In this document: piece by piece, positions 12,722-54,344 of the stretch
How positions within the stretch are numbered: position 1 is the stretch's first letter
Layout: each line of letters starts with the position of its first letter
NCBI GenBank assembly: GCA_003327425.1
Contig: QOQW01000006.1
Span: 1-64,000, forward strand
Direction of reading: 5' to 3'
Length of the DNA stretch: 64,000 bases
Origin: Candidatus Ozemibacter sibiricus
GTDB lineage: Bacteria > Muiribacteriota > Ozemobacteria > Ozemobacterales > Ozemobacteraceae
Position numbers and translations under genes: made by a program
The notes under the pieces: model-generated
The model's database searches: none
The model's input: only the letters and a program-made list of their open reading frames with translations
Told to the model about the DNA's origin: nothing

Positions 12722-12849
12722 GGGCTTTCTCACTGTTCATGCCGATTCCGGCGGTTTTCCCGCAGTGTAGCACGGAAATCCCCGCGGGAAAAGAGGGCGG
12801 CCTCGCGGGGTTTTCCCGGGTTGATGGATAGGTACCGAGAAGAACAAGG

Positions 12850-12858
12850 TGGTATACT
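12850..12858 (+). promoter_or_regulatory. extended -10 promoter of the PilT cluster, possibly leaderless
   Basis: TGG-TATACT (12850-12858) ends 8 bases before the ATG at 12867. No Shine-Dalgarno sequence fits in that space and no good -35 is seen. With a usual -10 to start distance, transcription would begin at or within two bases of the start codon. Confidence 0.5.
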
Positions 12859-12866
12859 GGCAGGGT

Positions 12867-13946
12867 ATGGCTGACGAGACCAGTTTGTACCAGTTGTTGA
12901 AGCACACCTACGAGTGCCGGGGATCCGACCTCCACCTGAAGGTCGGTCTGCCGCCGGCCATCCGTATCGATGGGGCGATCACCCAGGTCGACGGGGTCCG
13001 GTTCAATCGTCGGGAGTTCGAAAAGGTGATCGAGGCCCTGCTGACCCCCGCCCAGCAGGACCGCTTCAAGGCCGGCGGCGAACTCGATTTCGCCTACGCG
13101 CTCGAGGGGGTCTGCCGATTCCGGGTCAACCTCTATCGCGACATCAACGGCATCGGCGCGGTCTTCCGCGTCATTCCCTACAAGGTCTTCACCTTCGAGG
13201 AGATCGGTCTGCCGCTGGCCGCCCAGAAACTGATCGAGCAACCCAACGGGCTGATCCTGATCACGGGCCCGACCGGCGCCGGCAAGACCTCGACCCTGGC
13301 CAGCTACATCAGCTACGTCAACGCCAAGGCGCGACGCCACATCATCACCATCGAAGACCCCATCGAATTCCAGTTCGAAGACCAGCTCAGCATCATCAAC
13401 CAGCGTCAGGTCGGCGCCGATGTGCCCGGCTTCTACGAAGGACTGTTGACCGTGCTGCGTCAGGATCCCGATATCGTGGTGGTCGGCGAGATGCGCGAAC
13501 CTCGCACCATCGCCCTGACCCTGAACGCCGCCGAGACCGGCAAGCTGGTGCTGGCTACCCTGCATACCACCTCGGCGGTCCAGACCGCCGAACGGATCAT
13601 CAACGTCTTTCCCGAGAACCAGCAGCGGCAGATCCTGCATCAGTTGTCGATGGTCCTGCGGGGGGTGATCTCGCAGACCCTCCTGCCGAAGATCGGTGGC
13701 GGGCGGGTGGCGGCCTTCGAGGTGCTGATCAACACCTCGGCCGTGCGCTCGTTGATCGGAGAGGGCAAGATCCACCTGATTCCGAGCTTCCTCGAGACCG
13801 GCACCGAGTATGGCATGCAGACCATGGACATGTCGATGGTGCAACTGGTCAAGAATGGGCTGGTCAAAGCCGAAGAGGCGCTGGCCCATTCGCCCACGCC
13901 GGCCAATCTGAAGAAACTGCTGCAGGCCCTCCGGGACCGGGACTAG
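12867..13946 (+). CDS. PilT-type retraction ATPase, canonical (copy 1)
   Basis: A hexameric AAA-like secretion ATPase of the PilT family, which drives type IV pilus retraction from the cytoplasmic side. It has 359 residues. The N-terminal PAS-like domain starts with SDLHLKVG. Walker A GPTGAGKT lies near residue 134, the Asp box TIEDPIEF near 162, Walker B VVVGEMRE near 203 and the His box TLHTTSA near 231. All catalytic residues are present. The C-terminal part, normally carrying the AIRNLI motif, reads SAVRSLI. The frame stays open to a GTG at 12849, but the ATG at 12867 fits the family N-terminus and the promoter. It is first of a co-directional run with spacings of 10, -4, 76, 4 and -4 bases. 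Confidence 0.93.
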   Translation: MADETSLYQLLKHTYECRGSDLHLKVGLPPAIRIDGAITQVDGVRFNRREFEKVIEALLTPAQQDRFKAGGELDFAYALEGVCRFRVNLYRDINGIGAVFRVIPYKVFTFEEIGLPLAAQKLIEQPNGLILITGPTGAGKTSTLASYISYVNAKARRHIITIEDPIEFQFEDQLSIINQRQVGADVPGFYEGLLTVLRQDPDIVVVGEMREPRTIALTLNAAETGKLVLATLHTTSAVQTAERIINVFPENQQRQILHQLSMVLRGVISQTLLPKIGGGRVAAFEVLINTSAVRSLIGEGKIHLIPSFLETGTEYGMQTMDMSMVQLVKNGLVKAEEALAHSPTPANLKKLLQALRDRD

Positions 13947-13956
13947 GAGGCAAGGC

Positions 13957-14994
13957 ATGCTGCGCATCCATTCCTACTTCGAAACCGCCATCGCCCGTCG
14001 GGCCTCCGACCTCCATCTGAAATGCGGCAGCCCGCCCACCCTGCGCATCGGCGGGCGCCTGGTGCCCCTGCCCGAAGAACCGCTGGCCCACCAGGAGATG
14101 CCCAATCTGTTCCTGCCGCTGATGGATGTCCGGCAGCAGGAGCAGTTCCGGGCCTGCCTGGAAGCCAATTTCATGATCAACTACCAGAACCGGTGGCGGA
14201 TCCGCGCCTGCATCTTCCGGCAGCGGGGCAGCCTGTCGGGGGCCTTCCGGTTCATTCCCACCAAGGTGCCGAGCATCGACCAGCTCAAGCTGCCGGTGCG
14301 CCTGAAGGAGATGGCCCTGCGTCCGCGCGGCCTGTTCCTGGTGACCGGGCCGGCCAACAGCGGCAAATCGCACACGCTGGCCGCCATGGTCCATGAAATC
14401 AACAAGAGCAGCGCGCGGCACATCGTCACCATCGAGGATCCGATCGAATTCGTCCACAAGCCGCGGCGCTCGATCTTCACCCAGCGCGAGATCGGCCTGA
14501 TGACCAAAGATTACCAGTCGGCCCTGATCTACGCCCTGCGCGAAGACCCCGATGTCATCCTGGTCGGCGAGATGCGCGACATCACCACCATCGAGATGGT
14601 GCTGACCGCGGCCGAGACCGGGCACCTGGTCCTGTCGACCCTGCATACGGTCGGCGCCGTGCAGACCATCGATCGCATCATCAACGTCTTCCCCGGTCAT
14701 CGGCACGATGAGATCCGCACCCAGCTCTCGCTGTCGCTGCTGGGCACCATCTCCCAGATCCTGCTCCCCGGCCGGGAGAAGAACGAACGGGTGATGGCCT
14801 ACGAGCTGATGATCCTCAACCCCGCCATGCGCAACCTGATCCGCGAGAAGAAGACGAACCAGTTGAAGTCGGCGCTGATGCTGGCACGCAAGGAAGGGTG
14901 CGTCACCCTCAAGGACAACCTCACCGAGCTGCTGCGCGATGAACGGGTCGATGCCCGGCTGATCAACGCGCTGATGAAGGAGATCGTCGAATGA
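13957..14994 (+). CDS. PilT-type ATPase, canonical (copy 2)
   Basis: Encodes 345 residues, a paralogue of the preceding gene. The N-terminus again has ASDLHLKCG. Walker A GPANSGKS is near residue 131, the Asp box TIEDPIEF near 159, Walker B VILVGEMRD near 203 and the His box TLHTVGA near 229, so it should hydrolyse ATP. The C-terminal AMRNLIREKK matches the PilT AIRNLIRE motif better than copy 1 does. AGGAGG precedes the ATG by 6 bases. Its stop overlaps the next start (ATGA). PilT/PilU pairs are common in pilus systems, and copies 1 and 2 could be such a pair. Confidence 0.93.
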   Translation: MLRIHSYFETAIARRASDLHLKCGSPPTLRIGGRLVPLPEEPLAHQEMPNLFLPLMDVRQQEQFRACLEANFMINYQNRWRIRACIFRQRGSLSGAFRFIPTKVPSIDQLKLPVRLKEMALRPRGLFLVTGPANSGKSHTLAAMVHEINKSSARHIVTIEDPIEFVHKPRRSIFTQREIGLMTKDYQSALIYALREDPDVILVGEMRDITTIEMVLTAAETGHLVLSTLHTVGAVQTIDRIINVFPGHRHDEIRTQLSLSLLGTISQILLPGREKNERVMAYELMILNPAMRNLIREKKTNQLKSALMLARKEGCVTLKDNLTELLRDERVDARLINALMKEIVE

Positions 14995-17153
14995 GCCTGG
15001 GGCCCGAACTCGAACCCTTCCGGCTGGTCAAGGCGGCCCGCCGGCTGCTGCGGCCGGCCACCGCCGCGCTCGAGGCGCGCGTCGCGGCGGGCGACGACGA
15101 TGACGCCCTCTATGCCGCCCTGCTCGCTCTCGGCAAGATCGGCGACCCCGCCTCCCTCGAGGTGCTGCAGGGGGCGCTCGATCGGTTCCCCGAGCGGCCG
15201 GAGCCCATCGCCGCCCTCGGCCATTACCGCAGCAGCACGCCGGTGCCCAAGCTGCTCAAGCTGCTCGAGAACCCCGATCATCCGTTCAAGGAGGAAGTGG
15301 TGCGGGTGCTCGGCGAGATCGGCGATCCGATGGCCGGCAAGGTGTTGAAGGAGCTGCTCCATGACCAGGACCGCATGGTGCGATACCATGCCGCCTGGGC
15401 GTTGTACAAGATCGGCGGGCGCGATGTGGCCCAGAGCCTGTGCCGTCTGCTGTCCGACCCGGACGAATGGATCGTCATCAACGTCCTGGAGATCCTGTCC
15501 CGCCTCAAGGAGGTCGAGGCCATTCCTTCGCTGGTGGGGCAGTTCGAGATCGCGCGCGATCCGCGGTTGAAGGCGATCATCATCAGCACCCTGGCCAGCT
15601 TCGGCGAGACCCAGCTGCTCAAGGTCTTCGAAGAGGGCCTGAAATCGTTCGACCCCCGCATCCAGGCCAATGCCGTCGAGGCGATCAGCCTGCTCAAGAT
15701 CTCGGGACTCGAGATGAAACGCAAGCTCAAGCGGTTCTACGGGCATTCCAACAACCGGGTGCGGGCCAATACCGCCCTGGCCCTGCATCGCATCGACGAG
15801 GCCACCGTCACCCAGGAGATCCAGGCCATGCTCGACAGCCCCGATGTGGCCACGCGGCGCTCGGCCGCCTTCGTCCTGTCGAAGGCCGCCCTGCCCGGCC
15901 GCGATGCCATGATCGACCGGCTGCTCGGCGATCCGTCCTATGCCGTGCGGAAGATGGCCCTCAAAGCCGCTCTGGCCCTCGAGACCGGGGTCTCCATCGG
16001 TCGCATCCAGCCGCTGCTGACCGATCAGAACATCTGGGTCAGGCGCGAAGCGGTCGATTGCGCCCGCAAGATCCCCGAATTCCCCGCCGCGGTCATCCTC
16101 GAGGCCTTCAAGGCCGAGAAGAGCCCTCCCGTGCTCGACAGCATGCTCGATTTCATCGTCGAGCGGCACCTCGATCAGGCCGTCGACGCCATCCTGGCCA
16201 AGATCCGCGAAGAGCCCGAGGAGGGACTGCCCAAACTGCTGTCGGCGCTGGGCCACCTCGAGGCGCGGGACGCCATCCTCAAGGCGCGCAAATCCTTGGG
16301 TGCCGCGACCCCCGAGATCATGCGGGAATACTACATCGCCCTCCTCCTGCATGGCGACCTCGGGGTGCTGGCAGAGATCAGCGCCGCCCTCCAGGACCGG
16401 AAACGGGAGGAGGAGGTCCTCCTGCACATCGAGCTGGCCGGCGAGCTGGGCGCCTTCCTGCAGCAGACCGACCGGTTCTCGCGGCGGCTGCATGAAGCCC
16501 TGGCCGCCGAAGTCGCCAAAGACCTGGCCGGGGTGGCGACGCTCGACGCGCCTCCCGCCCCGCCCGCCCTCCAGAAGGACGCTCTGCCGCGCGGGCTCGA
16601 ACTGGTGGCGCAGGGCCGGCTCGAAGAGGCCATCCGGTTCTTCGAGGAGTATCTGCGCGCATTTCCCGGCAGCACCGAGGCGCTCTACCATCTGGCTGCC
16701 GCCCTGTTCCGCCAGGGGGAGGTCGAAAAGGCCCTGCCCATCTTGCTCGAGCTGCTCGAGAAAGCCCCCGGCCATGTCGCCGGCGAATTGCTGCTGGGGC
16801 AGATCCATTTCCAGCGCAAGCGCTGGGATGAGCTGATGAAGCTCTATGAAAACCTGTGCGGCCGGCTCCCCCGGGATGACCCCAAAACGCTCGGCCAGGT
16901 GCAGGGGGCCCTGGGGCTGGCCTATTTCCATCTCAAACGCTACCAGAAGGCCATCGAAACCCTGAACCAGGCCATGGCGACCAACCCGCGCGATCTGTCC
17001 TCCTGCTACCACCTCGCCCTTTGCTACTATGCGGTCAAGGAGCACGCCAAAGCGCTCGGGCTGCTGCGGAACCTGAAGGCCACCCTGCCGGCCGACAGTC
17101 GTGTCTTCCGCAATGTCGAAGAACTGATCCAGAAATTGGAAGACGAGGGTTGA
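14991..17153 (+). CDS. HEAT-repeat/TPR fusion protein B
   Basis: Encodes 720 residues with the same order of domains as protein A at 10409-12721. Residues about 15-500 are HEAT repeats, several with clear D-P-xVR signatures (DPRIQANAVEAI, SNNRVRANTALAL). A short Pro/Ala linker lies near 515-530. Residues about 535-715 are tetratricopeptide repeats (EEAIRFFEEYLRAFPGS, QKAIETLNQAMATNP). There is no signal or membrane segment. Translation is coupled to PilT copy 2 by a 4-base overlap, which makes a physical or functional partnership with the PilT ATPases likely. No known pilus protein with this composition comes to mind. Confidence 0.85.
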   Translation: MSLGPELEPFRLVKAARRLLRPATAALEARVAAGDDDDALYAALLALGKIGDPASLEVLQGALDRFPERPEPIAALGHYRSSTPVPKLLKLLENPDHPFKEEVVRVLGEIGDPMAGKVLKELLHDQDRMVRYHAAWALYKIGGRDVAQSLCRLLSDPDEWIVINVLEILSRLKEVEAIPSLVGQFEIARDPRLKAIIISTLASFGETQLLKVFEEGLKSFDPRIQANAVEAISLLKISGLEMKRKLKRFYGHSNNRVRANTALALHRIDEATVTQEIQAMLDSPDVATRRSAAFVLSKAALPGRDAMIDRLLGDPSYAVRKMALKAALALETGVSIGRIQPLLTDQNIWVRREAVDCARKIPEFPAAVILEAFKAEKSPPVLDSMLDFIVERHLDQAVDAILAKIREEPEEGLPKLLSALGHLEARDAILKARKSLGAATPEIMREYYIALLLHGDLGVLAEISAALQDRKREEEVLLHIELAGELGAFLQQTDRFSRRLHEALAAEVAKDLAGVATLDAPPAPPALQKDALPRGLELVAQGRLEEAIRFFEEYLRAFPGSTEALYHLAAALFRQGEVEKALPILLELLEKAPGHVAGELLLGQIHFQRKRWDELMKLYENLCGRLPRDDPKTLGQVQGALGLAYFHLKRYQKAIETLNQAMATNPRDLSSCYHLALCYYAVKEHAKALGLLRNLKATLPADSRVFRNVEELIQKLEDEG

Positions 17154-17229
17154 CCGCCCGCCCTGCCCGTTCACGATTCTTCGGACCCTGCCGATAGAAA
17201 GGTCCGACTCCACACTCGAGGGACGCGCC

Positions 17230-18291
17230 ATGGATGGTCTGTTCAAGTTGTTGGCCGATCTCGCCAAGAAAAAGGTGTCGGCCCTGCACCTCGCCCCGGG
17301 GGAGATCTGCTTCATCCGGAAGAATGGTCTATTGGAGCCGCTGACAGGGATTTCGTTCGGCGAAAACGAGGTCAAGCAGTTCATTCTCAAGACCAGCACC
17401 CCGCGGGCTCGGGAAATTCTCGGCAAGGCGCGGCAGGTGACGTACGCCTTCGAGCATCCCGCCCTGGGGCGGTTCCGCTGTTCCGCCTTCTTCGCCAAGA
17501 ACCGGTTCGCGGTGGCGGTGCGGGTGATTCCCGACAAACCTCCCTCGCTGGCCGAACTGGGGCTGCCCGAGGCGGTCAAGAAGATCCTGGCCCGTCCCGC
17601 CGGCCTGATCGTCGTCGCCAGCCCCTCCGGCCACGGCAAGACCACCACCATCGCGGCCCTGCTGGGGTTCATCAACAGCCATTTCCAGAAGAATGTGGTG
17701 ACCGTCGAGAATCCGGTCGAGATCAGGTTCCGCGATGAGATGTCCGCCTTCATCCAGCGCTCGATCCCGCTCGATGTGGCCAACTTCTACGAGGGTCTGG
17801 TCGAAGCCTACCGGTTGTATCCCGACGTCGTCATGACCGACAGCATCAACTATGCCGATGCCTTCGATCAGGCGCTGTTCCTGTGCGAATCCGGCTGCCT
17901 CGTCATCGCCGCCACCGATGGCGGCAGTTGCCAGCAGATCATCGAGCGGCTCATCTATTCCCGCCCCAAGGAAGAGCGCGACTCGCTACGCGGCAAGCTG
18001 GCCGCCCATCTGGCCCTGATCATCAGCCAGCGCCTGGCGCCGCGCCAGGACACCATCGGACGGATTCCCGTCTTCGACATCCTGGTCAACACCCCGCAGG
18101 TGAAAACGCTCATCAAGAACGAGAACCTCGTCATGCTCAAAAGCATTCAGGAACAGGATCAAGCCTCCGGCATGCAGACCTGCGATCGGCATCTGCTGAC
18201 CCTGGCCCAGAAGAACGTCATCTCCCCGGCCACGGCCGTCGCTCTGGCCGACGACCCGCAGGAGATGCAGACGCGATTCGCCAAGAGGTGA
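17230..18291 (+). CDS. PilT-like ATPase homologue with altered catalytic boxes (copy 3)
   Basis: Encodes 353 residues, clearly homologous to PilT along its length but diverged at the active site. Walker A reads SPSGHGKT near residue 131, with the first Gly replaced by Ser but Lys and Thr kept. The Asp box reads VENPVE instead of IEDPIE. The Walker B position reads VVMTDSI, so the usual Gly-Glu is Thr-Asp. The His box TLHTxxA is replaced by ATDGGSC, with Asp 230 where His is expected. It may still bind ATP while hydrolysing poorly. The N-terminus keeps only the remnant SALHLAPG of SDLHLKxG. It starts 76 bases after HEAT-TPR B, with a GAGGGA before the ATG. Confidence 0.88.
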   Translation: MDGLFKLLADLAKKKVSALHLAPGEICFIRKNGLLEPLTGISFGENEVKQFILKTSTPRAREILGKARQVTYAFEHPALGRFRCSAFFAKNRFAVAVRVIPDKPPSLAELGLPEAVKKILARPAGLIVVASPSGHGKTTTIAALLGFINSHFQKNVVTVENPVEIRFRDEMSAFIQRSIPLDVANFYEGLVEAYRLYPDVVMTDSINYADAFDQALFLCESGCLVIAATDGGSCQQIIERLIYSRPKEERDSLRGKLAAHLALIISQRLAPRQDTIGRIPVFDILVNTPQVKTLIKNENLVMLKSIQEQDQASGMQTCDRHLLTLAQKNVISPATAVALADDPQEMQTRFAKR

Positions 18292-18295
18292 CGGC

Positions 18296-19333
18296 ATGGA
18301 CCTGAAGAACCTGCTTGCCAAGATCCATCAACAGGGCGCCACCGAACTGCACCTGAAGGCCGGATCGCCGCCGCTGATCCGGCAGAACCGCTTTCTGCGC
18401 AAGATCGATCTGCCGGCCCTGACGCCCGATGACCTGAAGGACGTGCTGCAGACGGCGCTGCCCGAGGAAGAACGGAAACGCCTGCCCGCCTTGCGGTTCC
18501 ACGAGGTCAACGTCTTCGGCGAGCCTCCGTGCAACTATCGGTTGCAGGTCCTGCAGGCTCAGGGCGAGTTCATCGTCATCATCCGCATCATCGCGGCCAC
18601 GGTGCCGGGCTGGCCAGAGCTGGGGTTCCCCTTCGCCCTCGAGCCCCTGACCAAAGCGGCGATGGGCCTGTTCATCCTGGCTGGACCGGCCCGCTCCGGC
18701 ATCTCGACCTCGCTCGCCTCGTTCGTCGAACGGATCAACCAGAACCGGCCATCCCATATCCTGGTGATCGAGGATCCGATCGAGTACACCTTCGAGCCGA
18801 AGAAGGCGCGCATCTCGCATCGCCAGTTCAAGAAGGACATCCAATCGGTCGAGCAGGGCATCAATTTCGCCAAACGCATGGACGTCGATGTCCTGGTCCT
18901 GGGCGATTTGAAGCGGGAACTGCCGTTCGGCAACATCCTCGATTTCGTGGCCGGCGGCCATTTCGTCGTCCTGTCGATGCAGACCTTGGGCGTGCAGAAT
19001 ACGGTCGAGAAGATCCTGTATTCCTTCCCAGAATCCGACCGCGAGCATGCAGCCAATGTCCTGGCGCATTCCCTCCTGGGCATCTGCTCGCAGGCTCTGT
19101 TGCACAGTCCGACGCAGAATCGGATGGTCCCGGTGCACGAAGTGATGCTGGTCAACAACACGCTGCGCCAGATCATCCAGAAAGGGCGCACCGCGCAGAT
19201 CGATCCCAATCTGCGGTCGGCGGGCGAAGGCAGCCAGCCGTTCGATGTGCCGTTGGCCAAGCTGGTGCGCGACCAGGTGCTGCCCAAGGAGGCGGTCGAC
19301 GCCTTCCTGGCGTCCTTCAGGGGGGGGAAATGA
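18296..19333 (+). CDS. PilT-like protein with destroyed Walker A lysine (copy 4), probable pseudo-ATPase
   Basis: Encodes 345 residues, full PilT length. The P-loop reads GPARSGIS at residues 130-137; codon 136 (18701-18703) is ATC, giving Ile where the invariant Lys should be. The Asp box IEDPIEY is kept. Walker B reads VLVLGDLKRE, with Glu changed to Asp. The His box reads SMQTLGV, with Gln 229 for His. The reading frame is intact and the protein otherwise well conserved, so it is a maintained protein rather than a decaying gene. A structural or regulatory subunit of a mixed PilT ring is the likeliest role. It overlaps the following pseudopilin gene by 4 bases (ATGA). Confidence 0.9.
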   Translation: MDLKNLLAKIHQQGATELHLKAGSPPLIRQNRFLRKIDLPALTPDDLKDVLQTALPEEERKRLPALRFHEVNVFGEPPCNYRLQVLQAQGEFIVIIRIIAATVPGWPELGFPFALEPLTKAAMGLFILAGPARSGISTSLASFVERINQNRPSHILVIEDPIEYTFEPKKARISHRQFKKDIQSVEQGINFAKRMDVDVLVLGDLKRELPFGNILDFVAGGHFVVLSMQTLGVQNTVEKILYSFPESDREHAANVLAHSLLGICSQALLHSPTQNRMVPVHEVMLVNNTLRQIIQKGRTAQIDPNLRSAGEGSQPFDVPLAKLVRDQVLPKEAVDAFLASFRGGK

Positions 19334-19737
19334 AGCGAATGTCGTCGAACGGGTCTCGGCAGGCGCGGGGCTGCCGCCACGGCTTCACGTTGATCGAAAT
19401 GAGCGTGGTGGTGGCCATCATCGGGATCTTGTACTTCACCGTGGTGCCGCTCTACGGAACCACCATCCAGCGGGCGCGCGAAACCGCTCTGCGAGAGAAT
19501 CTCCAGGTGCTGCGCAAGACCATCGACCTCTACTTCAAGGATCGGGAGGTCTGGCCGGCCGATCTGGCGACCTTGGTGAAAGATGGCTACCTGCGCGCCG
19601 TGCCGGTCGATCCTCTGACCGGCCGAGCCGACACCTGGGTCACCGTGCCGTCGAACGTCGGCGCCTTCGATGTCTTCGATGTCCATTCGGGGGCGGCCGG
19701 CACCGGGCTGGACGGCACCCCGTATGCGACCTGGTAG
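19330..19737 (+). CDS. type IV pilin/GspG-like prepilin
   Basis: Encodes 135 residues. It has a classical prepilin signal: an 18-residue basic leader ending in RHG, then FTLIE, so a prepilin peptidase should cut after Gly18 and leave Phe1 with the conserved Glu5. A hydrophobic helix of about 20 residues follows. The rest resembles minor pseudopilins: a helix around ALRENLQVLRKTIDLYF, then WPADLATLVKDGYLRAVPVDPLTG, which is the GspG-type layout. It overlaps the stop of PilT-like copy 4. Together with the next gene it supplies exported filament or initiator subunits for this machine. Confidence 0.9.
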   Translation: MKRMSSNGSRQARGCRHGFTLIEMSVVVAIIGILYFTVVPLYGTTIQRARETALRENLQVLRKTIDLYFKDREVWPADLATLVKDGYLRAVPVDPLTGRADTWVTVPSNVGAFDVFDVHSGAAGTGLDGTPYATW

Positions 19738-19773
19738 CCGGCGGTTGACCGGTCGGCTGCGGAGGCACGGCCC

Positions 19774-20211
19774 ATGACCCCGGGTCAGCCCAGCCGTGAG
19801 GCAGCCGGCCGTTTCTCGCCCCCAGGGAGACGAGCAAGCTCCGACCGAAGGCGGGGAACCGCCCTGCTCGTGCTGGTGCTGAGCCTGATCTTGCTGGGCG
19901 TCGGCCTGGCAGTGGGCCTGCCACGCGCCACCCACGACGTGAAACGGGCCAGGGAGGTGCAATTGCGCTTCATCCTCGGCGAGTATCGACGGGCGGCCGC
20001 CCGCTTTCGGGAGCGGCACGGCCGGTGGCCCACCCGCCTCGAGGAGCTGGAGGCGGACGCCAGTGGCGTCCGTTACCTGCGCCGCCGCTATCGCGACCCC
20101 ATGACGGGAACGTTGGATTGGCAGGTCGATCTGGCGGGCGACCAGTTCTGCGTTCGCTCGACCAGCTCTGACCTCAGCCTGGCCGGGGTTCCCTACCGGG
20201 AGTGGCGTTGA
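19774..20211 (+). CDS. GspG-like pseudopilin with atypical leader
   Basis: Encodes 145 residues. After a basic leader ending RRRG (Gly28) comes TALLVLVLSLILLGVG, a hydrophobic helix lacking the Glu5 that pilins use to enter the growing filament. The C-terminal half contains the pattern ERHGRWPTRLEEL, then YLRRRYRDPMTG followed by LDWQVDL, typical of GspG-like pseudopilins. Either it is cleaved by the prepilin peptidase as a tip or minor pseudopilin (GspK-type proteins also lack Glu5), or it stays as a membrane-anchored protein. GGAGG lies 8 bases before the ATG. It ends the PilT gene run. Confidence 0.8.
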   Translation: MTPGQPSREAAGRFSPPGRRASSDRRRGTALLVLVLSLILLGVGLAVGLPRATHDVKRAREVQLRFILGEYRRAAARFRERHGRWPTRLEELEADASGVRYLRRRYRDPMTGTLDWQVDLAGDQFCVRSTSSDLSLAGVPYREWR

Positions 20212-22726: not shown

Positions 22727-24178
22727 TCAACCTGCCTCTGGAGGGGAATGACCCCGGACCTCTCCGACCTGGATGGTGGTTGGGGTGCCTCCTGGGGCCG
22801 GTGGGAGTTCGGGGAGCGGTGGGGTGGGGGAGAAGGCGCCGCGGGAAGAACGACGCGGGGGCATGACGCTCCAGAACCACTTCTGAAGCGTTCCTTCCAA
22901 CGGAACGGCAGGGCCGGCCCCCGTCGGCGAGGTCTTGGCGATCTGGGAGAGCGTTTCTTTGATGGTGGGCGGTCGGGCGCGGGGAAAGGCCGGCCCAGGA
23001 ACAGGGAGCGCGGGTGGGGGCGGGGGCCGGGTGGTAGCGTAGCGCATGAGGGCCAGACGGGTGCCTGGGTAGTAGAAGCTCAGGATGGCGGCTTTGCTAT
23101 AGCCGGCCAGGCCCATGCCGATGGCGCCGTCCTGGCACAGACCGACTCGGTGGCCCCGGCTGGGGCGCAGGACGCGGCGATGCTGGGGAATGGCCGCCAC
23201 CCGGCTCGGCGGCTGGCGTTCGAGCGCGGCGACGCCTGCTTTGATCTCGTCAAGGGCGAGGTTGCAGAAATACCCTCCTTGCCCGAGGGAATCATCGTGG
23301 GCGGGCAGATACGGAACGTCGGCCCCGCCCCAGACGGCTTTCGAAGAAGCGAGACGCCCGCCGCACCGCGCATGGTAGACGGTATTGGCGAACTGGCCAT
23401 CGTACAGCAGGACTTCGCCGTGGGTGCGGCTGACGGCCTGCGAGGAGGCCGGCAATTCGGCCAGCATGCCCGGATAGACCTGGCAGTGGACGCGGTCGCA
23501 GAGATCGAAGCCCGAGGCCGCATGCCGCTTGAGGTTGCGCAGGGCGTAGGTCCGCGCCGCCACCGCCTGGGCCTCGAACGACGCCCGGGGGGCGTGGTCC
23601 CCCATCTCGGCAGGGACGACCCCTTTGAGGTAGTCCTCCAGGTCGACCACGTTGACCGCGAACAGATGGCCTTTCCAGGGCGCGATGACCAGCGAACCGC
23701 GGTAGGCGTACAAGGTCTTCGAGGGGGTGTCGTCGGGGCCGCCCAGGGCCCAGGTGCCACCGGGTTCGCCCGACGGAGAAGCCGGGGTGGTCGGGCGAGG
23801 CTTGCGGGAGCGGGAAGAGGACCCGATTCTGATCAGCAGATGGCTGGGCGGCCGCCCGACGGCGGAAAACACCAAGGGCCTGGCGCTGCGAGCGAGCACG
23901 GTGGAGCCGACCAGGACGGCGAGGCCGTGGGCGTGGGCGACGACCGTCGCTTCGGGAAGGGGACCGGGATGCAGAGCCCGCCGCTGGGCTGGATCGTAGA
24001 TTTCGAGCGCTCCATTGGAGGGCGCGATGACGACCTGGGTGGGAAACCCCAGTTGGTACAAACCGATGCGCAGGCGGAAATAAGGCGCTACGGCGGTGAC
24101 CGACGCCGCAGCGGTCGGCATTCCGATGGCCGCCAGGAAGGCGACCACGGCCAGGCCGATCAATACAGGCGTTCGCAT
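22727..24178 (-). CDS. SpoIID/LytB-domain secreted protein
   Basis: Encodes 483 residues. A signal peptide covers about 1-25 (cleavage near AAA). The SpoIID domain includes the conserved LEDYLKGVVPAEM and AQAVAARTYAL segments, the CQVY...AV segment and the C-terminal GHRVGLCQDGAIGMG, where GHGxGxSQ is usual. SpoIID proteins are peptidoglycan lytic transglycosylases of sporulation; relatives in non-sporulating bacteria act on, or enhance amidases of, the cell wall. The C-terminal 110 residues are Pro-rich and low-complexity. No Shine-Dalgarno sequence precedes the ATG, and a TTGACG-N17-TACAAT promoter ends 6 bases before it, so the mRNA is probably leaderless. It is coupled to recN. Confidence 0.88.
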   Translation of the reverse strand: MRTPVLIGLAVVAFLAAIGMPTAAASVTAVAPYFRLRIGLYQLGFPTQVVIAPSNGALEIYDPAQRRALHPGPLPEATVVAHAHGLAVLVGSTVLARSARPLVFSAVGRPPSHLLIRIGSSSRSRKPRPTTPASPSGEPGGTWALGGPDDTPSKTLYAYRGSLVIAPWKGHLFAVNVVDLEDYLKGVVPAEMGDHAPRASFEAQAVAARTYALRNLKRHAASGFDLCDRVHCQVYPGMLAELPASSQAVSRTHGEVLLYDGQFANTVYHARCGGRLASSKAVWGGADVPYLPAHDDSLGQGGYFCNLALDEIKAGVAALERQPPSRVAAIPQHRRVLRPSRGHRVGLCQDGAIGMGLAGYSKAAILSFYYPGTRLALMRYATTRPPPPPALPVPGPAFPRARPPTIKETLSQIAKTSPTGAGPAVPLEGTLQKWFWSVMPPRRSSRGAFSPTPPLPELPPAPGGTPTTIQVGEVRGHSPPEAG

Positions 24179-41231: not shown

Positions 41232-44200
41232 TCAGGGCAGGAGGATCATCTCGCTGCCCGGCAGCAGAGCTTCACCATCGACCGCGACGGTGACGGGATA
41301 ACCGCTCTGGGTGGTGCCGTCGAGGAACCATTCGACGGCCACGGAATCCCAGGGTTGGAGGATCTGCGGCCGGGGTGCTTTGGCGATCGTGGTGTCAGGG
41401 GCCCCATAGAGGGTGAAGCTGACCTCGGTAGCCTGAGGCGCGATCAGAGTGGCGACCGCCGAGATGGTCCAGCCGCCGGCGCGAGGTTCGGCCTTGACCT
41501 GGGTGAGGCCGACCCGCGGCGCGAGGGCATCGTCCTCGGTCTTGGCCAGCACCTGGGCGCACTGGGCGAGGCGGGCGTCGAGCGTGGCGACGGCGCGATC
41601 GAGGCGCGCAGGGAGGTCGGCGGCGGGCAGGGTGCCGGCGGCGGCGGGCAGCAGGGCCGCCAGCACGTCGGCGCGGGCCAGATCCGCCGCGATGGCCTGA
41701 TCGGTCATGCCAGCGAGATCGCCTTCGCGAGAGGTGCCGGCGAGGGCGGCCTCGCAGGTCAGGGTCCACAGACGGTCGGTAGGTTCGTAGGCTTCTTCGA
41801 ACGCGACCAGCTCCTCGGCCACCGCGGCGAGGGCGGCGGTGTCGTGGGCGGCGAAGGCCTGCCGGGCCCGGTTGGCGAGGGTGTGGTAGTCGGCTTTGAG
41901 CGTGCCCAGAGTGCGCAGGGTCGCCCCGAACTGCGCGGCTTTCACCGGGAGGCGGGGGAGATCGCTGGCCTTGGTCTGGGGGAGGGGCTGATCGGGATGG
42001 AAGGCGAGGTGCAGGCCTTTCTCGAGCTGGCCACGGGTGCGGCAGAATTCGATCAGGCTGCTGGTCATGCCATGGACCAGAGCGCCGCCAGAGAACGTAG
42101 CCGAGATGATGCCGACGACCTTGCTGATGTTGGTCGGGTCGATGAGACTGGCGTAGCCGGCGATCTGGGCGACCGCCTTGGCGATCTTGGCAGCCTCGAC
42201 CTCTTTGAGGGTGAAGGCATGCTTCTTGGCGAGGTCGGCCGCCCACTCCTCGAACAACGAGGTGGCCGTCTGGGGGTCTTCGTCATCGAGGACGGCCCGG
42301 CGGGCGGCTTCGGTGGTGCCGGTGAAGTCGCCTTTGACGGCGGTGGTCACGGCGGTATCGAGGAAGCTCTGGGTCTTGGCCACATAGCCGACCTTGGGCA
42401 GACTGACGAAGGCATACTTGGCCACCGTCTTGGCGGCCCAGGGCTTCATCCAGGAGGTTTCTTCGGTGACGGGGGCTTGCAGCAAGCGGGCGGCCACCGA
42501 GCCGCCGAGCTGGACGACGATGGGGACGATGGTGGAATAGGGGGGCTTGAGCTTGACCGCGATCAGGTTGGTGACGCGGGTGATGATGCCGATCGATTTG
42601 CCGATGATCAGCTTGACCACCTTCTGGGTGAGGGTGCCGACGATAGGTACGTTGGCCAGGCCGTTGGAGATCTGCAGCAAGGTGGACCGGCCGGTCAGCA
42701 CCAGCTTGACCGCCTCGTGGAGGGTGTAGCCGAAGTCCTCGGCCATCAGCAGGTTGTTGTTGTAGAGACGCTCGACGAGGTCTTCGAAGATGGTCAGGCG
42801 TTTGAGGGCTTCCTTCACCGGACTGGCCGGCTCGCCGCCAGCCCGCAGCGTGTCGATCCAGGACTGGGCGGCGGTCTCATCGTAATCGACGATGCCCAGG
42901 CCCTCGGGGAAGGGGATGTTGGGCAGGTTCAGGCTGAGCTGCAGGATCTTGTACATCTGCAGGATCTGCCCTTCGAGAAATTGCGGGTCGATCTTGAGGT
43001 GGGTCAGGGCGTTGATCAGTTCCTGTTTCTTGTTGCACAGGTAGAGGATGTTGGTGTGCGAGGTATCGGTCTCGTCGCCACGAGTGGCGGGAGGGGCGGC
43101 CGCGGTCTGATCGTCGGCGGTCTGGCGGTCGGCTGAGAGGCCGTTCAGCAGGGGGGCGAGCGCCTCCTCGACGGCGGGGTCTGTCGCTTCCCCGTGCCCG
43201 GCGGCGAAGGTGCGACGCTCGGCGAGCAGGCGCAGCAGCGGTTCATAGCCGGGTTTGGCGCCAGCGGCCGCCAGGATGCGGGCGTTGGCCACGGCCTCAG
43301 GGGTGCGGGCCGGGTCGAGCAGATCGGCAGCCGCGCGGGTGATCTCTTCGATCTGCCGGGTGGTTCCCTGGTAGAGTTCGTCGAGACCGGGCTGGCCGTC
43401 CTTCATCAGGGGTTCGAGCGTGGCGAGCAGCTGCTGGCCACGCTCGAGCCCAGCCAGGTAGCCGCGCATCGTGGGTTGGGGGTTGAGGGTGAACTTCACG
43501 TCGTATTCGAGAGGTTTCTTGGTGGTGTTGCCCACCAGGAGCGACACGGCGTTCAGTTCGGCGCCCAGGCCGGCGATCGTTTTGGTGGCCTTCCAGTCCT
43601 TGTCAAGGGGCAGATCGTAGACCTTGGTCTGGCAGGATTCGACGACCAGGCGCACGACCGGGGCTTCCTTGGGCCCGAAGATCACGCCCTTCTTGGCGGC
43701 CACGTCGATCTGCACCTTCCCTTCGAGGGGCATCAGGTTCGGGTCTTTGGGCGTGATGGTGATCTGGCCGTGGTCGGTGCTGACGTATTCAGGGTTGAAG
43801 AGGGAGAAGTTGACCTTGGTGATGCCTTTGTCGAGCACGGGCCCGAATTTGAAGACGGGATAGTTGCCCCCGCACCTGGTCAGCAGCGTCTTGCCGGGTT
43901 CGAGTTCGCGGGTGTCGGGCGGCCACAGCTCTTTGGGCGGAAGAACGCCGTCGTTGACGTTCCACAGCACGAAGCCGGGGCCGGGCAGATTGACGCAGAT
44001 GATGTCGGCGACCGTGGGGAACGGCGGGCTCCAGAAGGGGTAGGATTCGACCCGGTAGTAGTCGGTGGCCCAGGGCTGGACGGTGTCTTTGAACGCCTGC
44101 GGTCCTGACCGCGGATCGACGGTGCGGTGCATGACCTTCACCGGCAGGGTTTCATCGTAGTGCCATTTGCCGCCCCCATTGTAGGGGTCGTTCAGGTAAT

Positions 44201-45206
44201 TGGCCACCGACCAGTCGCTCCAGACCTTTTCGAAGGTGGTCTGGTAGCCGCCCTTGGCCAGCGCCTCATCGATGCTCTCGATGCCCTGCTTGGGGTTGCT
44301 GGAGACCAGCAACGACATGGGAGTCGTGGTGCCCGGGTATTTCTGGTACAGGTAGTAGAAGAACAGGTAGACGGCGCCGTAATCGGTGATCGAGTTCTTC
44401 CAATCGGCGATCGTGTGGTCAGGGGCGCGGGTGAAGGCCATGATCTGATTGGGGTGGCCGAATCCGCAGACCTTGAACGCATACTGGGACTGCCCTTCAT
44501 TGATCCATTTGGTCTCGCGCGGATCTTGGTTGAAATGGATCAGGTGCTGGAACTCATGGGCGACGACACCCATGTAGAATTTGTCTTTGGGATCGGAAGG
44601 ATAGAGATCGAGGTAGATCATTTCCCGCTCGTTGCTCTGCGGGAAGTCTTTCACCGAATACTCGTTGAGCGGGAAGAAATACCCGCCGACGTAGCCTTTG
44701 CCGGGTTCCCAGCCGTCTTTGATGTCCAGCATCAGCAGGGTGATGCGGTTGTCGCCATCGATGCCGGGTTTGGGCTCGCTGCCGAAGCATCGGGTATCGG
44801 TCGGATAGATGTTGGTGTCGAATTGGGCCACGATGCTGTCGAGGGTCGGTCCGTCGACCTTCTGGCCCTTTTCGACGTAGAGGTAGCAGTGCTTGCCGAT
44901 CCGTTCGAGCACGGCGGTGACGCGCTCGAACTGCTTGGTGGCGATGTTCATCGCCCAGAAGGTCTCTTCGCCGCCGATCGGAACGCCCTCGCGGGGGGTG
45001 CGCCGGGTGATTCGCCGGAAGCGGGTGGCGGCGGCGCGGGCCATATCGTCGAAGAGGGGGGTGGCGTCGACCCAGGTCGGACGGTCAGGATCGAGGGGTG
45101 TCGCCTCGTCGAGACGCAATTGCTGCCAATCGGGGGCTGGCAGGTCGCTGGCGAAGGCGGTACAAGCCAACAACACGAACAGGAGAGACCAACAACAACG
45201 TTTCAT
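41232..45206 (-). CDS. very large secreted zinc metallopeptidase (HExxH, M30/M6-like) with long helical C-terminus
   Basis: Encodes 1324 residues. A signal peptide covers about 1-20 (TAFAS). The catalytic motif HEFQH is at 217-221, followed by WINEGQSQYA with Glu237 as probable third zinc ligand, and GGYFFPLNEY before it; this resembles hyicolysin-type (M30) peptidases. A beta-rich region covers about 370-570. Residues about 600-1200 are mostly helical, including a stretch rich in hydrophobic and Gly residues (about 770-860) that might associate with membranes. The last 130 residues are beta-rich, closing with SEMILLP. GGAGG lies before the ATG at 45206. A good promoter is at 45279-45307. The C-terminal 900 residues match nothing I know. 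Confidence 0.82.
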   Translation of the reverse strand: MKRCCWSLLFVLLACTAFASDLPAPDWQQLRLDEATPLDPDRPTWVDATPLFDDMARAAATRFRRITRRTPREGVPIGGEETFWAMNIATKQFERVTAVLERIGKHCYLYVEKGQKVDGPTLDSIVAQFDTNIYPTDTRCFGSEPKPGIDGDNRITLLMLDIKDGWEPGKGYVGGYFFPLNEYSVKDFPQSNEREMIYLDLYPSDPKDKFYMGVVAHEFQHLIHFNQDPRETKWINEGQSQYAFKVCGFGHPNQIMAFTRAPDHTIADWKNSITDYGAVYLFFYYLYQKYPGTTTPMSLLVSSNPKQGIESIDEALAKGGYQTTFEKVWSDWSVANYLNDPYNGGGKWHYDETLPVKVMHRTVDPRSGPQAFKDTVQPWATDYYRVESYPFWSPPFPTVADIICVNLPGPGFVLWNVNDGVLPPKELWPPDTRELEPGKTLLTRCGGNYPVFKFGPVLDKGITKVNFSLFNPEYVSTDHGQITITPKDPNLMPLEGKVQIDVAAKKGVIFGPKEAPVVRLVVESCQTKVYDLPLDKDWKATKTIAGLGAELNAVSLLVGNTTKKPLEYDVKFTLNPQPTMRGYLAGLERGQQLLATLEPLMKDGQPGLDELYQGTTRQIEEITRAAADLLDPARTPEAVANARILAAAGAKPGYEPLLRLLAERRTFAAGHGEATDPAVEEALAPLLNGLSADRQTADDQTAAAPPATRGDETDTSHTNILYLCNKKQELINALTHLKIDPQFLEGQILQMYKILQLSLNLPNIPFPEGLGIVDYDETAAQSWIDTLRAGGEPASPVKEALKRLTIFEDLVERLYNNNLLMAEDFGYTLHEAVKLVLTGRSTLLQISNGLANVPIVGTLTQKVVKLIIGKSIGIITRVTNLIAVKLKPPYSTIVPIVVQLGGSVAARLLQAPVTEETSWMKPWAAKTVAKYAFVSLPKVGYVAKTQSFLDTAVTTAVKGDFTGTTEAARRAVLDDEDPQTATSLFEEWAADLAKKHAFTLKEVEAAKIAKAVAQIAGYASLIDPTNISKVVGIISATFSGGALVHGMTSSLIEFCRTRGQLEKGLHLAFHPDQPLPQTKASDLPRLPVKAAQFGATLRTLGTLKADYHTLANRARQAFAAHDTAALAAVAEELVAFEEAYEPTDRLWTLTCEAALAGTSREGDLAGMTDQAIAADLARADVLAALLPAAAGTLPAADLPARLDRAVATLDARLAQCAQVLAKTEDDALAPRVGLTQVKAEPRAGGWTISAVATLIAPQATEVSFTLYGAPDTTIAKAPRPQILQPWDSVAVEWFLDGTTQSGYPVTVAVDGEALLPGSEMILLP

Positions 45207-45278
45207 TCTACCCTCCACGCGACATACTCGAACGCCGTACTCGGACCACGTTGGGATTGTTGGGGGGACAGTGTTTCT

Positions 45279-50903: not shown

Positions 50904-53900
50904 TCAGCTTTTCGCGGCGGCGGGAGCGGCAAAGGCCTCGAGAGCGATCTGCCGGACGGTGCGGAGGTCGACCTTGCCGGTGCCCAGCACAGGGATGGCA
51001 GGCACCTGGACAAAACGTTCCTTCTTGGGGATGAACAGATTGGGCAGGCCCTGGGCCGCCAGCTTGTCGAGCAGCGGGGGAATGCGCTCGAGCGGCAGAG
51101 TGGTGAGCACGGCGAGGGCCTCGCCCTTCTTCTCGTCGGGGATGCCGGTGACGGCGAAGACCTGGGTGGTGGCGCCGGCCGCCTCCATCAGCGCTTCTTC
51201 GACCTTCCCATGCGGGACCATCTCGCCGCCGATCTTGCTGAAGCGCGACAACCGGTCGGTGATCTTGACGAACCCGTCTTCATCGATGATGGCGATGTCG
51301 CCGGTGACGTACCAGCCGTCGCGCATCACCTTGGCCGTCAGATCAGGGCGCCCAAGGTAGCCGGCCATGACGTTGGGCCCCTTGACCAGTAGCATGCCGG
51401 GCTGCCCGACGGGAATCGGTTCGCCGGTCTCGGGATCGACGGTGCGCACGCTGACGCCCGGCACGGGGTGGCCGACGAACCCGCGACGCGATCCCACCTG
51501 GTAGATGCCCGCTTCGCGGATGTCGAGCGTGCTGACGGTGATGGCGGGGGCGCATTCGGTGGCGCCGTAGCCCTCGATGGGGCGGATCCCGAACTTCTCT
51601 TCGAACGCGGTGGCCAGCCGCTCGGTCAGCTTCTCGGCACCGGTGAAGACGAGGCGCAGGCTGCCGAACTGCCCCGGCGCGCAGCGCCGCATGTAGAGCT
51701 GCAGAAACGTCGGGGTGGCGATCAGGAAGGTGATGGCGTGCTGTTCGACCAGTTCGCCGATCCTGGCGGCATCGAGGGGATTGGGGTGGAAGACGATGCC
51801 CATGCCGCATTTCAGCGAGAACCACAACGACATGAAGCCGAACGAATGGAAGAACGGCAGCACGCCGAGCAGTCGATCGCGGTGCCCGACGGGCAGCGCC
51901 TGTCCGACCCCTTCGATGTTCGACAGGATGTTGTAGTGGGTCAGCACCACGCCCTTGGGCGTCCCGGTGCTGCCGCTGCTGAAGATGATGGTGGCGGGGT
52001 CGTCGGGGCCGACGCGCCGATCGGCATAGCACAGCCATTCGAGCAGCGGCAACGGCGCCAGCAGGCCGATCGCCAGGCAGTAGAGCTTCTCGAAGGGTCC
52101 GATGTCCTTCCCCACCTCTTCTAGGAACACGGGGCGCAGACCTGACGGCAGGGCGACCTTCGCTTTGTCCAGGAATTCCCGGCTGGTGACGACGGTCTGC
52201 AGGCCGGCCTGCTGGGCGGCCGACTCGAGGCCGGCCAGGCCGGTGGTGAAGTTGAGGTTGACGGTGACCTTGCCCAGAAGGGTGGCGGCGAGGTTGACCA
52301 GGGCGCCGGCGATGGACGGGGGAAGGCAGATGCCGACGTGGCGCTGGCCCTCCCATTCGTGCCGGAGGCGCCGGGCCAGGGCGACGGCCCCGGCCAGCAC
52401 GCCCGCTTTGGTCATCCAGCGGTTGGCGTCGGCGAAGGCGCAGCGCCAGGGCCGGGTGCGCAGGCTGCGGATGGCCTCGTGGTGCAAGGGAAAGCTGTCG
52501 GGTTTGCGGTGTTCCCAGGCGGCCGTGCCCAGCTCCTGCACGATCTGGCGAAGGCGCACCGTGGGCGTATCGGACGGCAGGGGCGCCCCGAACTGGATGG
52601 TGATCGGATAGGGGTACCGTTCAGGCAGCTTCGAGAAGAAGGCGCCGCCCGCCCGCGAATAGAAACTGCCCCACAGGCGATCGAGGTAGATCGGAATGAT
52701 CGGGGCGGTGCGCCCCTTGATGATGCGTTCAAGCCCCCGTCGGAACGGCAGCAGGTGTCCGATGCGGGTCATCTGGCCTTCCGCGAAGATGCAGACCAGA
52801 TCGCCCTGATCGAGGCAGTCGCCGGCCTGCCGCAGGGCTTTGAGGATGACCCGCAGGCCGCCGGTGGCGGAGACCGGGATGGCGTTCATCCAGCGCATCA
52901 ACGGGTGCAACCAGAAGTTGTAGTAGTAGATCGAATCGACGATGAATCGCACCTGGCGATGGGTACTGGCCATGATCAGAAAGCTGTCGATGAACGAGAC
53001 GTGGTTGGGTACCAGCAGAGCACCGCCTTCGCGCGGGACGTTCTCTTCCCCGACGATGGTCAGGCGATAGAAGGTGTGGGTCAGGATGACGAAGATCAAG
53101 CGGATGAGGAAATCAGGCAGCAGCCAGACCGCCCACACCGTTCCGCCTACCGTGAACAAGGAAGACAGCGTCAGGATGGCCCGGGTCGACAGGCCCAGCC
53201 AGGCCAGGCCGCCCGCCCCCAGCGAGCCGGCCATGATGCCGAAGAAGACGAACACGTTCGTCAGAGCGATGATGCCGCCGCGCCGGTCGGCCGGAGCCCG
53301 CCACTGCACGATGGCGTTCAGCGGTACCACGACGAGCCCGCTGGCCAGGCCCAGCAAGACCATCAGCAGCAGGGTGTAGCCGTACGTCGGCCCCCACAGG
53401 CTGAACAGAAGGCTGAAGAACGCGATGCCCAGAGCCCCCAGCGGGATCAGGCCGTATTCCACCAGGTGCCGCGAGAGTCGGCCGGCCCACAGGCTGCCCA
53501 GGCCGACGCCGATGCCATAGAACGCGAGCGGCAGGCCGGACCAGGTATCGGAATTGGCCCAGTCGCGCGTCAGGGCTTTCGTGTAGACCAGGATGTCCTG
53601 GCCCAGGAGGCTGGCGGTGAACCAGAAATAGATCGAGCCCAGCACGGCCAGATAGAGCACGCGATCGGCGCCGATCGCCTGCCAGGAGCTGCGGATGGTG
53701 GCGACGAATCCGCCTTCGGCGCGGGCGGGCGGCACGGGCGGCACGTACCACGAGGCGATCCAGCCGATCAGGGCGAAGAGGGTCAGCAGGCCGCCGGCCA
53801 GGGCGGGGGTGGGGCCGGACAGGTCGAGGAGCAGCCCGCCGGCGCCGGTGCCGAGAATGATGGCGAGGAAGGTCCACATCTCGAGGCGGGCGTTCCCCCA

Positions 53901-54344
53901 GGCCAGGCGCTCGGGTGGCAGCAGTTCGGGAATGATGCCGTATTTGGCGGGGCTGAAGAAGGCCGATTGCATGCCCATCAGGCCGAGCACGATCAGGGGG
54001 AGCAGGCGCGGGGCATCGGTGGCGAGGGCATAGGTGCCCAGACCCATCAAGCCGATCTCGAGGGCTTTCAGCCAGACGATCAGCGTGCGTTTGCTCCAGA
54101 GGTCGGCTAGCATGCCCGCCGGCAGGGAGAAGAGGGCGAGGGGAAGGGTGAACACGACGTAGGCCAGGGTCGTCTGGGCCTGGCTGGCGCTCTCGAAGGC
54201 GGGATCGGCGGTGGTGAGCCCGGCGGTGGCCGCCCGGATGGTCAGCAACGCGACCATCATCTTCCAGGCGTTGTCGTTGAAGGCTCCGAAGAACTGAGCT
54301 ACCAGCAGGGCGGTTAACGGCGATTTCGGCTCGTTCGCTGTCAT
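50904..54344 (-). CDS. aas: LplT-PlsC-Aas fusion: lysophospholipid flippase, acyltransferase and acyl-ACP synthetase
   Basis: Encodes 1146 residues with three enzymes in one chain. Residues 1-410 are an MFS transporter of the LplT type ([14 protein letters not shown] at the start), which flips lysophospholipids inward. Residues about 420-600 are a PlsC-type acyltransferase with NHVSFID (447-453, the HX4D box) and EGQMTR near 522. Residues about 625-1140 are an AMP-forming acyl-ACP/acyl-CoA synthetase with [10 protein letters not shown] near 790, GYGATEC and the [14 protein letters not shown] motif. In E. coli LplT and Aas are separate proteins of one pathway that re-acylates lyso-phosphatidylethanolamine. 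Expression is from an extended -10 embedded in a palindrome (54369-54399). Confidence 0.93.

Follow-up and report, generated by a model that had tools for sequence, protein, structure and literature searches.

The sharing of one pilus base by two retraction ATPases is an open question, and the evidence on it comes mainly from engineered dead PilT. When V. cholerae PilT carries a dead Walker A or Walker B motif, PilU still powers retraction; the authors of that work suggested that a PilU ring lies beneath PilT, and their tests argued against PilT/PilU hetero-hexamers (PMC6762196). PilU-like density beneath PilT is cited in a later paper (PMC13142100). Larger sets of PilT paralogues have been described in Geobacter sulfurreducens, with PilT1–PilT4 that have all motifs intact and are described at separate loci, and in M. 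xanthus, which has several (PMC5065972). In M. xanthus, SgmX, a protein with 14 TPRs, brings about the polar localization of PilB (PMC11580455). No relevant report on degenerate PilT, pilus pseudo-ATPases or HEAT repeats with PilT was found in the open-access literature searched.

The locus described here was first noted from its sequence as a run of four PilT-like genes with HEAT-TPR and pseudopilin genes. It was proposed to encode an undescribed retraction or secretion machine whose active and inactive motor subunits would form mixed rings, assembled or gated by the repeat proteins. The accompanying statement that no pilus system with four paralogues is known was too strong, given the four of G. 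sulfurreducens. The window analysed is a stretch of 64,000 nucleotides (G000:C39:1-64000) from a 5.7 Mb genome of Candidatus Ozemobacteraceae (Riflebacteria).

Layout and conservation of the gene run

All genes of the run were found where the original prediction had placed them, on one strand and with a second HEAT-TPR fusion divergent next to them (Table 1). For T1, an ATG start at 12867 is more likely than the GTG at 12849, because orthologue matches mostly start near residue 7. Three 4-base overlaps had been claimed and only two were found (T2/HTB and T4/PSP); T3 is separated from T4 by 4 bases and preceded by a gap of 76. A promoter scan returned one match against 0.9 expected.

Table 1. 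Features of the gene run and its divergent neighbour, with positions in the window
Feature	Coordinates	Strand	Evidence
HTA, HEAT-TPR fusion, 774 aa	12733-10409	-, divergent	Pfam HEAT_2 + TPR
T1, intact PilT-type ATPase	12849..13946	+	TIGR01420 420 bits
T2, intact PilT-type ATPase	13957..14994	+	TIGR01420 392 bits
HTB, HEAT-TPR fusion, 720 aa	14991..17153	+	HEAT + TPR domain matches
T3, pseudo-ATPase by sequence	17230..18291	+	Residue replacements 19/19; AF2 model
T4, pseudo-ATPase by sequence	18296..19333	+	Replacements at 133, 136 in 19/19; AF2 model
PSP, GspG-like pseudopilin	19330..19737	+	N_methyl, TIGR01710/TIGR02532 matches
ORF145, pilin-like protein	19774..20211	+	Kept in relatives; no Pfam/NCBIfam match

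The locus encodes neither a platform protein nor an assembly ATPase nor a secretin, GspE and GspF being absent too. The host genome has 29 T2SSE-domain and 22 T2SSF-domain matches, of which the window contains only the T2SSE matches of T1–T4; these counts point to numerous type IV filament or type II secretion machines. Elsewhere in the window, all on the minus strand, are a SpoIID-domain protein adjoining RecN (22727-24178), a predicted protein of 1328 aa that matches no Pfam family and has a signal-like N-terminus (41232-45218), and a 1146-aa fusion of MFS transporter, acyltransferase and AMP-binding domains (50904-54344).

Conservation was assessed in 40 genomes of the phylum, many of them incomplete, with 24 from the family and 16 from seven other families. 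T3 orthologues (45-93% identity) were present in 19 of the 24 family genomes and in none of the 16 others, where the best matches had ~32% identity. In a scan that reached close relatives only, the closest named relatives of T3 came from two MAGs, one of Candidatus Ozemobacteraceae (93%) and one of Candidatus Riflebacteria (84%). T4 had the same distribution, plus partial copies in G009 and G025, both at contig ends, and a T4 profile scored 526-619 bits for full-length orthologues and no more than 230 bits for other proteins. Among the 19 genomes with full-length T3 and T4, the two genes were adjacent in tandem in every one, and T1-T2-HTB-T3-T4 was contiguous with small gaps in 16; these 16 include the window itself and G012 and G023, in which T2 or T1 is truncated by the end of a contig. 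PSP directly followed T4 in 14 of the 19 and did not adjoin it in genus g10 and G008. HTA orthologues occurred in 22 of the 24 family genomes, adjoining T1 in most genera and lying apart in some.

Between close species, protein identity was as high for T3 and T4 (93-95%) as for T1 (92%) and RecN (89%). The gene order was retained between genera at which T3 and T4 identity falls to ~43-60%, indicating that the run is more than chance; it is a conserved feature of Ozemobacteraceae and not a local curiosity. In three genomes (G008, G010 and G011), T3-T4 lay apart from T1-T2-HTB, which shows that the two halves of the run are separable modules. Cassette-A T2 and HTB were not found in the G008 (96% complete) or G010 (94% complete) assemblies. 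The HTA gene of G008 is cut at a contig end, and the flanks of cassette A in G011 are not syntenic in G010, so that the G010 copy may sit on a missing contig. Together, the separation and the missing T2 and HTB suggest that T3 and T4 may do without T1 and T2.

Two active-type and two degenerate PilT paralogues

T1 and T2 scored above the cut-off of TIGR01420 (pilT_fam, 319.1 bits), and T3 (265 bits) and T4 (211 bits) fell below it. With the Walker A lysine numbered 136, T1 had Walker A, Walker B and His box intact in 13 of 13 orthologues (Lys136, Glu204 and His229). T2 retained Lys136 and His229 in 15 of 15 and Glu204 in 14 of 15, with a Walker A motif GPANSGK[ST]H and an AIRNLIRE-like motif. 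Both fit the two canonical PilT genes of the original prediction. A sample of over 50 further PilT-family proteins from across the phylum retained Lys136 without exception and Glu204 with a single one, G030.C15_1555, which has Asp.

The other two copies, which had been predicted to be of an inactive type, were degenerate at catalytic residues in all 19 orthologues. In T3, Gly203-Glu204 was replaced by Asp-Ser (19/19), removing the Walker B glutamate, Asp160 of the Asp box by Asn (19/19) and Thr230 by Gly (19/19); the His-box histidine was absent and Lys136 retained (19/19). In T4, Gly133 was replaced by Arg and Lys136 by Ile (both 19/19; GPARSGIST) and Thr210 by Pro (19/19), Glu204 was Asp in 18 of 19 and His229 was mostly Gln, and the Asp box was kept (Glu159, Asp160 and Glu163). 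About 60 columns were invariant in each orthologue set. Since the replacements are fixed, T3 and T4 are, by sequence, conserved pseudo-ATPases, and they probably lack ATPase activity. AF2 models, made for monomers, had a pLDDT of 84.5 for T4, with the whole chain matching PilT/PilU structures (TM ~0.8-0.9), and 83.8 for T3, with the order of elements as in the PilT fold and a low-confidence loop (161-184) directly after the Asp box.

Trees of 97, 46 and 93 sequences placed T3 and T4 each in a single clade (support 100/100), a point that the original prediction had set as a check, and T1 and T2 likewise formed single clades. Among the 40 genomes compared, the T3 and T4 clades were confined to Ozemobacteraceae. 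The original prediction had named two outcomes that would speak against it, a gene order not conserved in relatives and recent decay of copies 3 and 4, and neither was found.

A second cassette (cassette B, below) has genes T1' and T2', which grouped with T1 and T2, respectively, each with support of 100. Families f5 and f6 have T1-T2-related PilT pairs that lack HTB. These relationships can reasonably be read as an old T1-T2 pair that was joined by HTB in Ozemobacteraceae and then duplicated as a unit, one copy being with T3-T4. A single shared origin of T3 and T4 was borderline (p-AU 0.050). T3 joined the first gene of a third adjacent PilT pair, cassette C, as a weakly supported sister (91/96, at a node where long branches meet); T4 may derive from the T2 side or from the second gene of cassette C. 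The cassette C pair lies at G000:C7:418454-420552 (L090) and is also present in G022.

HEAT-TPR proteins and pseudopilins

HEAT and TPR proteins are typical protein-binding scaffolds. Among the phylum genomes compared, the HTB family was restricted to Ozemobacteraceae, and a paralogue belongs to cassette B. This cassette, T1'-T2'-HEAT/TPR' (G000:C29:198282-203430; L040), encodes a HEAT-TPR protein of its own, and a pilB-pilMNO operon that includes a pilin is ~5 kb away; the T2' of the cassette has Pro at the position of the His-box histidine. A HEAT-PilT fusion of 963 aa is encoded at G000:C39:120557-123448 (L045:6557-9448), and nine further long PilT proteins, from families f1, f5, f6, f7 and f8, were all HEAT-PilT, making ten of ten tested. 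Cassette B and these fusions support a physical or functional link between HEAT solenoids and PilT motors in the phylum. The fusions suggest a kind of motor partner that no report in the open-access literature searched describes. A gating role of HTB on T1–T4 themselves would go beyond what the fusions show.

Two pseudopilins had been predicted. This held for PSP, which has the prepilin N-terminal motif and a GspG-like match that scores under the family cut-off. ORF145 is pilin-like and conserved and does not have the canonical GFTLIE motif, the prepilin Glu5 motif being missing. In other families, relatives of PSP adjoin a T2SSF platform gene (G003 and, by eye, G002) or cluster with GspE, T2SSF and PilM-like genes (G036). 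The pseudopilins suggest a short pseudopilus or pilus as cargo. Downstream of ORF145 in G012 (L055:5563-8175), and in the same direction, are three more pilin-like ORFs whose N-termini look prepilin-like by eye; the two that were scanned had no Pfam match.

Candidate functions and comparison with known systems

The reading that we prefer, at a probability of about 0.45, takes the run as an accessory motor module that serves a pilus or pseudopilus, T1/T2 being the active pair and T3/T4 a non-cycling coupler or brake. The conserved gene order, the fixed residue losses, the single clades, the high identity between close species, the predicted fold of T4, the duplication of T1-T2-HTB near pilus genes, the HEAT-PilT fusions and the V. 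cholerae precedent speak for it. The module would be specific to Ozemobacteraceae and would serve a type IV pilus or a type II-secretion-like pseudopilus machine encoded elsewhere. T1 and T2 would be an ATP-burning PilT/PilU-like pair, and HTB would serve them as partner or adaptor. T3 and T4 would retain the PilT fold without cycling: T3 probably binds ATP without hydrolysis, and T4, with Arg133 and Ile136 in its phosphate loop, is for that reason probably unable to bind it normally. Like the dead PilT of V. cholerae that still supports PilU, T3/T4 could form a ring that does not cycle, here a natural one, and act as coupler or brake on T1/T2 or on another motor. As a ring, or as positions within one, they would dock on a platform protein or on the T1/T2 ring and either hold the pseudopilin filament as a brake or pass on the stroke of the active pair. 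Ring formation, the docking site, the brake or coupler role and the pilin substrate are what we infer from the locus, and the estimate stays near its value because the two halves are separable in some genomes and the platform gene is missing from the run. The genomes in which PSP does not adjoin T4 and the V. cholerae tests against hetero-hexamers also weigh against this reading.

The separability also bears on a reading that we regard as possible and clearly less probable, namely that T3-T4 and PSP act independently: a static ring without catalytic activity would fix a short GspG-like endopilus to a platform protein encoded at a distance, with T1/T2 as mere neighbours. The genomes in which T3-T4, with or without PSP, stay together while T1-T2-HTB is elsewhere or not found argue for it, as do the PSP relatives beside platform or GspE genes, whereas the contiguity of both halves in most genomes and the absence of PSP beside T4 in g10 and G008 argue against it. 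We are equally doubtful of a filament motor of four paralogues, two active and two obligatorily inactive, in which stacked or mixed rings are held by HEAT-TPR proteins and the dead subunits set brake or direction.

An improbable reading is that T3 and T4 signal as decoy and sensor, T3 sensing ATP and T4 being locked, and tune retraction by sequestering HTB, T1/T2 or PilC. The retention of Walker A in T3 and its replacement in T4 would suit such a role, as would the scaffold nature of HEAT/TPR proteins and the existence of TPR pilus regulators such as SgmX. However, the domain scan found no extra regulatory domain in T3 or T4, and the full PilT fold predicted for them, with N-terminal domain and C-terminal helices, is that expected of a ring subunit. 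It is more improbable still that T3 and T4 are ATPases with altered chemistry: the Asp box of T4, its usual Asp at 204 and the Walker A of T3 would allow this, but T3 lost Glu204 and the His-box histidine together, and T4 lost Lys136 along with the change of Gly133 to Arg, throughout the 19 genomes. That the two are decaying lineage-specific paralogues, as their low scores against PilT models might suggest, is hardly credible given old single clades that span genera, and recent decay was rejected on the fixed residues, the invariant columns and the gap in T4 profile scores, with the conserved gene order also against it.

Compared with known systems, PSP resembles the pseudopilin GspG of type II secretion and type IV pilus systems in its prepilin motif and GspG-like match. 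The locus differs from a type II secretion system in the missing GspE, GspF and secretin and in a second pilin-like ORF without the canonical motif. HTA and HTB recall SgmX of the M. xanthus type IV pilus as repeat-protein scaffolds tied to pilus motors, but are HEAT-TPR proteins encoded with PilT genes. G. sulfurreducens shares the number of four PilT paralogues per genome, although its copies are intact and unlinked. The PilT/PilU pair of type IVa pili is matched by T1 and T2 as adjacent intact PilT-family ATPases; here, four copies lie in one run with HEAT-TPR genes and, in contrast to the engineered V. cholerae proteins, the dead paralogues are natural, fixed and additional to an active pair. 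A lineage with anciently fixed dead PilT paralogues would be a natural test of inactive rings as couplers or brakes.
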